Source: a bacterium
GTDB lineage: Bacteria; Pseudomonadota; Alphaproteobacteria; SP197
Direction of reading: 5' to 3'
Assembly: GCA_028821455.1 (NCBI GenBank)
Contig: JAPPGE010000005.1
Coordinates: forward strand, 1-64,000
DNA length: 64,000 nt
In this document: piece after piece, positions 12,427 through 15,667 of the stretch
Layout: every line of letters begins with the position of its first letter
How positions within the stretch are numbered: the first letter of the stretch is position 1
Notes under the pieces: generated by a model
The model's input: only the letters and a program-made list of their open reading frames with translations
What the model was told of the DNA's origin: nothing
Database searches by the model: none
Position numbers and translations under genes: made by a program

Positions 12427-13029
12427 TCACTCAACCTCGATCTCGAGTTCCGTCGGCCGGTTCCCGGCATTGATCTCCCAGCCTTCGGCCTGCATGTCGA
12501 AGGGGCACGAGGAGACCACGCAGATGAGGTCCATCAACGCCTCCATGGTCACGCCGGCACCCGGCCTGACCCGGTTGGCGGGGGCCGTCAGGCGTCCTTC
12601 GTCATCCACCGGCACGTTGGTGAAGAAGTTGATCGGCTGGGGAATGACCGAAATCTCGTAACCCTCGCGGCGCATGGCGATTTCCAGGTTCCCGGAACAG
12701 CTGGCGTGCACGCCCCGGTAGCCGAAGAACTCGTAGCGGAACTGATCGCAGGCCGCGAGCAGCATGTCGTGGACGCCATCGGCCGTGTCCCCGGTCATCG
12801 TCAGCATGGGTCGGCGAAATCGCGACAGGAAGACATCACCCGGCCGCGGCTTGAGCGAGAACGTGGTCACCCATGTGTGCGGCGGCGACAGCCACTCGTC
12901 GACATTGGCGCTGTTGTAGGCGAAGAAGTCGGCCGCCTGTCCGCCCTTCGGTGTCGTGACGGAAATGGACTGGCCGGCGGCGACACGCACTGCACGACCT
13001 TCTGACGGCGGGACAATGATTCGTTTCAT
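12427..13029 (-). CDS. DUF1989 / urea carboxylase-associated family protein
   Basis: A 200-residue DUF1989 (UCAF) protein. Relatives include subunits of carboxyguanidine deiminase and proteins next to urea carboxylase; others are unassigned. Conserved family features are GQAADFFAYN, TGDTADGVHDMLLAACD, GVHASCSGNLEIAM, and PINFFTNVPVDDEG with the late cysteine segment SSCPFDM. The ATG at 13029 has a GAGGAGCC RBS; the frame extends to 13110 but overlaps the upstream gene. It lies ten bases after the cysteine hydrolase gene, so the two are one operon. A role in amide, urea or guanidine-type nitrogen breakdown is an inference. Confidence 0.83.
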   Translation of the reverse strand: MKRIIVPPSEGRAVRVAAGQSISVTTPKGGQAADFFAYNSANVDEWLSPPHTWVTTFSLKPRPGDVFLSRFRRPMLTMTGDTADGVHDMLLAACDQFRYEFFGYRGVHASCSGNLEIAMRREGYEISVIPQPINFFTNVPVDDEGRLTAPANRVRPGAGVTMEALMDLICVVSSCPFDMQAEGWEINAGNRPTELEIEVE

Positions 13030-13039
13030 GGGCGGCTCC

Positions 13040-13756
13040 TCAGGCTGTCTCTTCCCGCAGACCGGTCTCGCCGGTTGCGGGAAATCCGGCGAGTTCGGTG
13101 ACGACGTCACCGCTCGTCACGATCCGGCAATACCCCGAATACATGCCAAGCGACTGCTCGTGCCGTTCCCTGCTCATGGTGGCGCAGGCATCTTCCGGCA
13201 CCGTCACCAGGTAACCGAGATCGCAGGCATCGCGCACCGCCGATTCGACACACTGGTCGGTCAACAGACCGCAGATCACGAGCTGTTCGATCTCGAGAGC
13301 GCGCAATACGTAGTCGATGTTCGTCGACATGAAGACATTCGAGGATGTCTTCGGGATGACAATCTCGTCGTCGCGGCGGGCGATGGCATCGGGAATGGCG
13401 GCCCAGGGCGAACCTCTCGGTACGCCGATGCCCGAGATGCGATAGTCGAGTCCAAGATCCCGCATATCGCCGGTCAGGGCCTCGACGACGGTGTACATCA
13501 CCTCCATGCCGATCCGCCTCGACGCTCCCTGAAGACGGGCGATCGCCGGCAAGGTCACCCCTTCAAGGCGGTCGAAGTAGTAGGCGAGGTGGTCCGGAAC
13601 ACATGAGGGGTCGATGTCGCTGAATTCGCCATCTCCGGGCGTCACCGTGTAGACCTGCACATCCACCACCAGCAAAGCCGCGTGACGGGGCGTCCTGATT
13701 GGCACATTTCGTGTCAGACCACCCATTCCGTCACTGGCGAAGCGTGCGCGCGACAT
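13040..13756 (-). CDS. Isochorismatase-like cysteine hydrolase
   Basis: A cysteine hydrolase of the isochorismatase superfamily, about 238 residues. The catalytic triad can be read directly: Asp in ALLVVDVQ, Lys in IVIPKTSSNVF, and Cys in LLTDQCVESAVRDACDLGY. Such enzymes hydrolyse amides such as ureidoacrylate, N-carbamoylsarcosine or biuret. The ATG at 13756 has aaggggaa upstream; an ATG at 13726 would also work. The frame runs on to 14053 without protein-like sequence. It pairs with the DUF1989 gene and is transcribed away from the ammonia-lyase homologue. Confidence 0.85.
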   Translation of the reverse strand: MSRARFASDGMGGLTRNVPIRTPRHAALLVVDVQVYTVTPGDGEFSDIDPSCVPDHLAYYFDRLEGVTLPAIARLQGASRRIGMEVMYTVVEALTGDMRDLGLDYRISGIGVPRGSPWAAIPDAIARRDDEIVIPKTSSNVFMSTNIDYVLRALEIEQLVICGLLTDQCVESAVRDACDLGYLVTVPEDACATMSRERHEQSLGMYSGYCRIVTSGDVVTELAGFPATGETGLREETA

Positions 13757-13895
13757 GGGCCCTGTTCCCCTTGAACCAGACCACCCTAAGGCGGCCCGAT
13801 TGTCCTGCGCAACCCGCCATCCGGATGCCGGGACTTGGAGAGAGCCGGGGTCCCGGCTACGTTGCCCCGAGGCATGCGGGCCGGAGGACGTGGGC

Positions 13896-14147
13896 GTGAT
13901 CAATGCGGTCATCTTCGACTGGTCCGGCAACGTGCTCGACTTCGGTTCCACGTCCCCGATGGAGACCTTCGCCGATCGTGACGACGAGGCACGAGGGCTC
14001 GTGGACCTCGGCAAGCGCCAGCGTATCGAGGCTCTGGCGCGGATGCGCCGCATCGCTGCTGCCTGGCATCACGTTCATGGCCAGGACATCACGGGACGCC
14101 TTGCTGCAGGACACACGCCCCATGACGACCGGGAGAACGGACGATGA
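13896..14147 (+). pseudogene. Truncated phosphonoacetaldehyde hydrolase (phnX-like) reading frame
   Basis: An 83-residue frame whose first part matches the N terminus of HAD-family phosphonoacetaldehyde hydrolase: INAVIFDWSGNVLDFGSTSP carries the nucleophile Asp of the FDWAGT motif. This is followed, after an apparent internal loss of roughly a dozen residues, by LGKRQRIEALARMRRIAAAW and then HGQDITG, as in PhnX cap sequences. The C-terminal two thirds, including the Schiff-base lysine region, are missing. Yet the GTG start has a perfect GGAGG eight bases upstream, and the TGA overlaps the next ATG as ATGA. It may be a decayed gene now serving as a translational leader for the lyase gene. Confidence 0.6.
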
Positions 14148-15667
14148 CGACGATCCTGCTGGGCGGGGCGCCGCTTGAAATCAACGACGTGGTGGCGGTG
14201 GCCCGAGGCGGCGCAAGGGTCGGCATCGCCCACGAGGCGCGATCACGCATGGAAGAGAGCCGTGCCGTGGTCGAGAGGTTCAGCGCCTCCGACCGTCCTG
14301 TCTACGGCCTCACCCGGGGCCTTGGCGGGCGCGTGGTGAACCAGGTGGATCATGCCGATCGCGAGGACTACAGCCGGGTGGTGGTGCTGGCCAGGGCCTG
14401 TGGCGCCGGCGAACCACTGACCGGGGAAGCCGTGCGGGCCGCCATGTTCTCGCGGGCCGCCGGAATGGCCCAGGGAGGAGCCGGCGTGCGCCCGCTGATC
14501 GCTGAGACGCTGTGCGCCATGCTCGACGAAGGGGTTCATCCCCTTGTTCCCGGCATCGGCTCCGTCGGCGCCTCGGACCTCGCTCTGTGCGCCAACATGG
14601 CGCTCCCCGTGATCGGCGAAGGGCGCGCCTGGTTCCGGGGAACACTTCTCGACGGCGCCGACGCCATGGCGCGCGCCGGCATCGATGTGGTCGATCTCCT
14701 TGAGAAGGAAGGTCTCGCGCTCTGTTCCTCGAACGCCGTTTCCGTTGGCCAGGCGGCCCTGGTGATTGCCGACCTGGAACATCTCCTGGAGTTGATGGAC
14801 GGCATCGTGGTTCTCGGTTTCGAGGCCTTCCGCGCCAATCCCGGGCCCATCGACCCCCGCGTCGTGATGGCCCGGGGCGCACCGGGCCAGGCGCGGGCGG
14901 CGCTGAGCCTGCGCAGCAAGCTCGAAGGAACGGCGCTGTTCGACCCCGAGGAACCCCGCCGTGTGCAGGACCCGATCAGCCTGCGCTGCGTCAGCCATGT
15001 CCATGGCAGCCTGAGGGCGGCGATCGACTTTGCGACACCCAATGTCACCGTCGAGCTCAACGGTGCCGGGGACAACCCCCTGGTTCTGCCGGCGGATGGC
15101 GACATCCTGTCCACCGGCAACTTCCACACCCCGGCCATGGCGGTCGCTTTCGATGCCCTCACGCTCGCCATGGCCCAGACGGCGACGATGGCGGCGCAAC
15201 GCATCGGCCGCCTGCTGCAGAACCAGTTCAGCGGATTGCCCGACATGCTGACGCGTCACGGCACCACGAGGGCCGGTCTCGGCCTCCTGTCGCTCACGTC
15301 GGAGACCCTGTCGAAGGAGATTCACCTGCTCGGCGCACCGGCCAGCCTGCTGGACAGTTCGAGCTACAATGTCGAGGATCACGCGCCGATGACCTGGGTG
15401 GCGGTCCGCCAGGCGCGGGACGCGGTCGGTCACCTCATCCGCATCGCCGCCTCCGAACTCATCGTTGCCGCCCAGGCCTTCGATCTGCGCAATCCGCCGC
15501 GCCATGCCCGCGTCGCAGGACGCTTGCACGACGCACTGCGCCTCATCGTTCCGCCCCTTGACGACGATCGCAGCATGACCGGCGAGCTCGCTGCCGTCGC
15601 CACTGCCATCGCCGAAGGCGCATTCCGTCACTGTCTCGGCCCGGAAGCGGAGAGCTTGACGGCATGA
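14144..15667 (+). CDS. Aromatic amino acid/histidine ammonia-lyase family protein with altered MIO motif
   Basis: A 507-residue member of the HAL/PAL/TAL superfamily, whose standard enzymes eliminate ammonia using the self-made MIO group from an Ala-Ser-Gly triad. Here the motif reads GSVGASDLALCANMAL: Ala143-Ser144 is followed directly by Asp145, so the MIO glycine has been lost by a one-codon deletion. Other landmarks remain: VYGLTRGLGGRVV (catalytic Tyr), GLALCSSNAVSVGQAAL, QDPISLRCVSHVHG, and NGAGDNPLVL. It starts inside the stop of the phnX remnant (ATGA). It may be an ammonia-lyase with unusual chemistry, an aminomutase-like enzyme, or a non-MIO protein. The substrate is unknown. Confidence 0.85.
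   Translation: MTTILLGGAPLEINDVVAVARGGARVGIAHEARSRMEESRAVVERFSASDRPVYGLTRGLGGRVVNQVDHADREDYSRVVVLARACGAGEPLTGEAVRAAMFSRAAGMAQGGAGVRPLIAETLCAMLDEGVHPLVPGIGSVGASDLALCANMALPVIGEGRAWFRGTLLDGADAMARAGIDVVDLLEKEGLALCSSNAVSVGQAALVIADLEHLLELMDGIVVLGFEAFRANPGPIDPRVVMARGAPGQARAALSLRSKLEGTALFDPEEPRRVQDPISLRCVSHVHGSLRAAIDFATPNVTVELNGAGDNPLVLPADGDILSTGNFHTPAMAVAFDALTLAMAQTATMAAQRIGRLLQNQFSGLPDMLTRHGTTRAGLGLLSLTSETLSKEIHLLGAPASLLDSSSYNVEDHAPMTWVAVRQARDAVGHLIRIAASELIVAAQAFDLRNPPRHARVAGRLHDALRLIVPPLDDDRSMTGELAAVATAIAEGAFRHCLGPEAESLTA

Follow-up and report, generated by a model that had tools for sequence, protein, structure and literature searches.

The gene at positions 14144..15667 on the forward strand of the window (the whole 64,000-nucleotide stretch of DNA that was analyzed) encodes a 507-residue protein of the aromatic-lyase family. 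The preferred reading, to which we assign a probability of roughly 0.6, is that it functions as a C-N lyase with the histidine ammonia-lyase (HAL) fold, makes no MIO and acts on a betaine-type substrate, the substrate class being suggested by ergothionase. Independence of MIO is the well-supported part of this reading. An enzyme of this kind is already known through ergothionase, and the new element is the branch that contains the window protein, in which the ergothionase lysine has been exchanged. This branch is best read as a set of undescribed MIO-free quaternary-ammonium lyases.

The family assignment is based on the open reading frame, the Pfam and HutH models and an AF2 model. PF00221 (Lyase_aromatic) matches the protein with 437.9 bits and is covered end to end, and the AF2 model has a pLDDT of 93.2. 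The MIO-loop motif GSVGASDLALCANMAL (residues 139-154; 14558..14605, forward strand) is one residue short. It reads GSVGASDL compared to GSVGASGDL in MIO enzymes, and the Ala-Ser-Gly triad is replaced by Ala143-Ser144-Asp145 (14570-14578, forward strand). Alignment of the Pseudomonas putida HAL with the window protein opens a single gap, which lies inside ASGD. An earlier note on this DNA had described a triad of Ala143-Ser144-Asp145 that is short by one residue, and both the translation and the alignment bear this out. The short motif is real and conserved.

The discussion of ergothionase in a 2026 paper (PMC13405746) gives the enzyme as lacking MIO and cites Maurer et al. 2019 for the Treponema denticola ergothionase (ergothioneine trimethylamine-lyase; PDB 6s7j/6s7q). 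The printed MIO-loop residues of 6s7j are an unmodified SSIGEGDI; the MIO-bearing chains 3kdy and 7tqr have an X in this loop. Compared with 6s7j, the AF2 model of the window protein aligns along 493 residues with Z = 45.9 and TM-scores of 0.92/0.94. HAL and tyrosine aminomutase chains match the model about as well, and so the fold alone cannot choose between ergothionase and the MIO enzymes. The window protein shares with T. denticola ergothionase the fold, the one-residue-short MIO loop, the loss of N195 and Y280, the retained Tyr, Arg and Glu, and a position in the MIO-free half of the tree. It differs in being only 26% identical, in having Leu384 in place of the ergothionase lysine and a new Lys391, in having Arg84 where ergothionase has a His, and in having no ert genes nearby. 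With P. putida HutH (1b8f) the window protein has in common the fold and the Y53/R283/E414 residues, and the two are 30% identical when matched by structure, but the window protein lacks the ASG triad along with H83, N195 and Y280, and its 373.8 bits against the NCBIfam HutH equivalog fall below the cut-off of 539.15. The lyases of the fumarase/aspartase superfamily work without MIO. Their likeness to the window protein is a distant one of fold (Z up to 13.7), with about 10% identity and an rmsd of at least 4 Å.

A closer comparison is offered by the L123 lyase of Rhizobium setariae, which is an ergothionase by genomic context. Its gene adjoins those for a thiourocanate hydratase (1024.3 bits, NCBIfam cut-off 930), a thiohydantoin desulfurase (571.3, cut-off 440), ErtD (766.4, cut-off 600) and ErtE (590.6, cut-off 520). 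The L123 lyase has a short motif (GSIGAADL) and falls on the same side of the tree as the window protein, but the two are 38% identical, and L123 retains the lysine and has the complete ert gene set adjoining. A search of titles and abstracts for ergothionase, MIO-free lyases and betaine lyases found neither a description of the window clade nor biochemical data on it. The passages of PMC3903478 and PMC12535398 that use 'MIO-less' or 'MIO-independent' apply these terms to engineered mutants or a suggested pathway, and PMC8364193, where it names ergothionase, only lists it among the enzymes that release trimethylamine (TMA).

The MIO and MIO-free proteins are separated by phylogeny when the motif is left out of the calculation. 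A quick, unrooted tree of 81 rows, computed without bootstrap after the motif columns were dropped, splits 24 MIO from 57 MIO-free rows by one branch with a support of 99 and places the window protein in a clade of 14 rows with a support of 100. T. denticola ergothionase (6s7j) falls on the MIO-free side of this tree on a long branch (2.4). The split still has a support of 99 in a second tree of the same quick kind (63 rows) to which tyrosine aminomutase and archaeal HAL were added. For the first tree, 32 rows were removed beforehand, mostly near-duplicates but also the broken copy L057; for the second, another 20 were taken out. A coherent group of homologues with AS-D or A-D motifs, which the earlier note proposed to look for, therefore exists with a support of 99 in the absence of the motif columns. 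A single ancient loss of the MIO-loop residue is the simplest account of this distribution. The window protein belongs to the MIO-free branch of PF00221 as delimited here by its short motif, its lack of Tyr280 and its position in the tree.

Active-site residues were counted in one MAFFT alignment of 111 rows consisting of 24 MIO and 87 MIO-free proteins (15 from the window clade and 72 others); L057 was left out and the 6s7j row was counted apart. None of the 111 rows deviates at Y53, D145, R283 or E414. In the window protein these include Tyr54 (14303..14305), the equivalent of HAL Tyr53 and the likely base (15/15 clade, 72/72 other MIO-free and 24/24 MIO rows), Arg281 (14984..14986), the equivalent of HAL Arg283 and the likely carboxylate binder, and Glu411 (15374..15376), the equivalent of HAL Glu414, all on the forward strand. 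Asn311 and Phe327 correspond to HAL N313 and F329 and are also kept. The window protein thus combines a predicted HAL fold with the catalytic Tyr53/Arg283/Glu414 set. The residues that contact MIO behave differently. In MIO rows, H83 and N195 are each present in 24/24 and Y280 in 22/24. In MIO-free rows, position 83 is Arg in 85/87, Y280 is found in 0/87 (I, L or V instead) and N195 is replaced by S, G, V or A in 64/87. The Asn that remains at 195 in the other 23 rows, all among the 72 outside the window clade, argues against a strict co-loss. The window protein has Arg84 (14393..14395, forward strand; Arg in 15/15 clade and 70/72 other MIO-free rows, His in 24/24 MIO rows), Ser195 and Ile278 in these three places. 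The claim that the other blocks of the enzyme remain is therefore correct for HAL Y53, R283, N313, F329 and E414, but H83, N195 and Y280 have changed.

Gene neighborhoods were compared between MIO and MIO-free loci by tblastn; other neighbor counts depend on a codon-usage gene caller. With seeds taken from MIO-free loci, which favors matches there, and with flanks whose lengths vary with contig ends, an OCD/mu-crystallin gene was found near 25/43 MIO-free loci that belong neither to the window clade nor to the Streptomyces-type group, compared to 0/20 MIO loci (Fisher p = 3e-6). Between the same two sets, in which the MIO controls all come from the window's class and the MIO-free loci from several phyla, an OpuAC-type betaine binding protein was found near 13/43 versus 0/20 (Fisher p = 0.006) and MttB near 5/43 versus 0/20 (Fisher p = 0.17). 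Urocanase has the opposite distribution, near 4/43 versus 13/20 (Fisher p = 1e-5), and the urocanase seeds, taken from the MIO-free loci as well, still found these 13 MIO loci. The MIO-free lyases outside the window clade are thus mostly accompanied by OCD or betaine uptake and not by urocanase, which suggests that many of them have substrates that are not histidine-type betaines. In Streptomyces-type loci, OCD is near 23/29 and the betaine binding protein near 27/29.

Several individual loci are recorded here as separate observations. Two Streptomyces loci (L060, L063) encode a pair of distinct MIO-free lyases, one with GSIGASDL or GSIGAADL and the other with GSIGQADL, along with a urocanase, and in Polaromonas and Burkholderiales (L104, L105, L110, L112) a MIO enzyme with GSVGASGDL is encoded near a MIO-free one. 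On Rhizobium plasmids (L044, L135), a lyase annotated as HutH, MIO-free in L044, lies beside genes for a CoA-transferase, an SDR, a MaoC dehydratase and a glycine-betaine transporter; our guess is that this cluster breaks down an arylacrylate derived from a betaine, possibly that of tryptophan. A divergent MIO-free lyase (GSIGAADL) lies between an OCD gene and a gene named glutaminase-like by appearance at L041 (G105:C22).

The window clade has other neighbors. By tblastn, OCD, betaine transporter and urocanase genes were each found near 0/15 of its loci, and MttB near 1/15, this one being the broken copy L057. Six loci of the clade have a 2OG-Fe(II) oxygenase gene 32-70 bp downstream of the lyase, and a seventh has it after one intervening gene. 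In the nearest relatives L045 and L047, an intact gene for a 275-residue phosphonoacetaldehyde hydrolase (TIGR01422, 314.5 bits in L045) precedes the lyase gene and overlaps it by 4 bp. These neighbors, together with the lack of betaine-type ones, fit a MIO-free lyase, hydratase or aminomutase whose substrate is no betaine but, for example, an N-substituted or phosphonate-linked compound, or else a non-catalytic role. We regard this as the strongest alternative, but an unlikely one. Comparison of the window with L045 and L047 shows that its own phosphonoacetaldehyde hydrolase is a remnant (13890..14147, forward strand) that has lost about 540 bp from its interior but retains the 4-bp overlap with the lyase start, and the gene is almost gone in L046. 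The hydrolase is therefore broken or lost in 2/4 close species in which the lyase is intact, which weakens its candidacy as a pathway partner. The 2OG oxygenase was set aside as a partner of the window protein; its nearest copies in the window's genome are 34% identical or partial matches and lie on other contigs. A dead enzyme is argued against by the invariant Tyr, Arg and Glu and by a low dN/dS. The window also has an isochorismatase-family hydrolase gene (13040..13756) and a DUF1989 gene (12427..13110), both assigned by family match, side by side on the reverse strand (12427-13756), an arrangement kept in L045-L047.

The feature that distinguishes the window clade from its relatives is the position of a lysine. 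Ergothionase Lys384 (SEQRES 383 of 6s7j, Lys384 in the entry) reportedly proved essential in the work of Maurer and colleagues. Its place is taken in the window protein by Leu384 (15293..15295, forward strand) and in the clade by L in 10, H in 3, M in 1 and V in 1 of 15 rows, but the 72 other MIO-free rows keep a basic residue there (K 71, R 1). Seven residues further on, a clade-specific lysine, Lys391 (15314..15316, forward strand), is K in 14 and R in 1 of the 15 clade rows and K or R in 0/72 others. Both positions lie in one predicted helix of the AF2 model (380-396), and this segment is aligned gap-free for nearly all rows shown. The clade also has Arg58 in 15/15 rows compared to 1/72 of the other MIO-free rows. 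We consider it an even bet that the window clade, which occurs mainly in uncultured Alphaproteobacteria, is an undescribed MIO-free lyase in which the lysine moved two helical turns (384 to 391) and which, with Arg58, acts on a different quaternary-ammonium (or other) substrate.

T. denticola ergothionase also has the rare Arg58, the window protein has the fold and the short loop of 6s7j, and the host genome has two urocanases. These points are consistent with an ergothionase proper that removes trimethylamine from ergothioneine (or from S-methyl-ergothioneine or hercynine). The ergothionase lysine is however replaced by L, M, H or V in 15/15 clade members, and no ert genes lie in the neighborhood of the window gene. 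The two host urocanases (contig C23) score 596.6 and 538.6 bits, far below the thiourocanate-hydratase cut-off of 930, and the divergent one (L161, at least 72% identity) is found in only 5/16 family genomes compared to a lyase match in 14 of the same 16. The second urocanase was rejected as a pathway partner on this last count. Loss of the ergothionase lysine and the presence of Lys391 and Arg58 indicate that ergothioneine is probably not the substrate of the clade, and the window protein is probably not an ergothionase itself; the opposite view is quite improbable.

The host encodes a true HutH separately on contig C1 (646.3 bits, cut-off 539.15). A third aromatic-lyase homologue of the same genome (G000:C11:135217-136506; L003, L004) is 27% identical, has GQGGAGE at the MIO site, and is a far more divergent second protein without the ASG triad. 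The 4.4-Mb genome also has four OCD genes and is rich in MttB-family methyltransferases, with 15 matches that are close to full length on the family model; of 14 genomes scanned as controls, only Methanosarcina has any MttB match. The MttB genes make methylamine and betaine metabolism in the host plausible, short of proof.

The earlier note had left two alternatives for the short motif, that the protein works without MIO or that it forms an altered group with Asp. The first is favored by the coherent group that includes ergothionase and by the loss of residues next to MIO. The second, in which Ala143-Ser144-Asp145 cyclizes to a MIO-like group with Asp in the place of Gly, would fit the conservation of Ser144 in 15/15 window-clade rows. 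In the 72 MIO-free rows outside the clade this serine is S in 34, G in 19, A in 18 and D in 1, which amounts to replacement in 38/72, and with a serine so variable across the wider MIO-free group a cyclized Ser group cannot be a family feature. The window protein has also lost N195 and Y280, which contact MIO, and the structurally solved relative 6s7j has no such group, going by its printed chain and by PMC13405746. An altered Asp group is accordingly very improbable.

The short motif recurs in many genomes. Among the loci read from a first search of 289 genomes of the window's class, six more share it (L006, L007, L009, L010, L011, L016), with ASD within the genus and AAD or AGD in more distant loci. 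An alignment of ten short-motif proteins, used to scan genome contigs, returned 377 relatives, and the short motif is present in 79 of the best 80, which were ranked by closeness to the window protein and are no census, so that all shares taken from them are biased towards the window. The remaining locus, L057, lacks the motif stretch and contains a stop codon. The lyase gene was matched in 10/10 same-genus genomes searched, the short-motif relatives come from independent assemblies that include a 3.4-Mb single-contig chromosome (L052), and dN/dS values of 0.13-0.15 between the window gene and its three nearest relatives (L045, L046, L047) show purifying selection. A sequencing or assembly error that hides GSVGASGDL, or a gene in decay, to which the decayed phosphonatase gene next door and the broken L057 copy (G163) might point, is thus already refuted by the identical motif in independent assemblies, the gene's presence throughout the genus and the dN/dS. 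The L057 copy (G163:C14, on the contig of L008 and L037) has its stop at the position of the catalytic Tyr and lies among genes that by appearance are SoxB/D/A/G-like, MttB-like and transporter genes.

The proposed reaction of the window protein, a MIO-free lyase acting on a betaine, is modeled on ergothionase. The substrate would be a zwitterion with a fully alkylated nitrogen, and trimethylamine or another tertiary amine would leave without activation by MIO. A tertiary amine leaves as a neutral molecule, and for this reason it is proposed to need no MIO. Tyr54 may take the β-proton, as in ergothionase, Arg281 may hold the carboxylate, and Glu411 would be turned towards the side chain. An α,β-unsaturated acid would result. 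Trimethylamine as the leaving group is carried over from relatives and is to be taken as provisional. The same is true of the substrate class, which is carried over from the sister clades because the window clade has no betaine-transporter, OCD or ert genes and lacks the lysine.

The MIO-free group as a whole is large, related to ergothionase and often mislabeled. The Rhizobium protein WP_025397227 carries the public label histidine ammonia-lyase, yet it lacks the residue that makes the HAL cofactor. HutH models are matched by 45/45 of the MIO-free members scanned against NCBIfam and an ergothionase model by 0/45, and no NCBIfam model specific to the MIO-free group was found. The group probably makes trimethylamine from betaines. 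If this is true, MIO-free betaine lyases would bear on the prediction of TMA sources and of histidine catabolism. The group also provides a natural series on when MIO is needed, in which the leaving group, the MIO loop, the contact residues and a moving lysine can be followed together.
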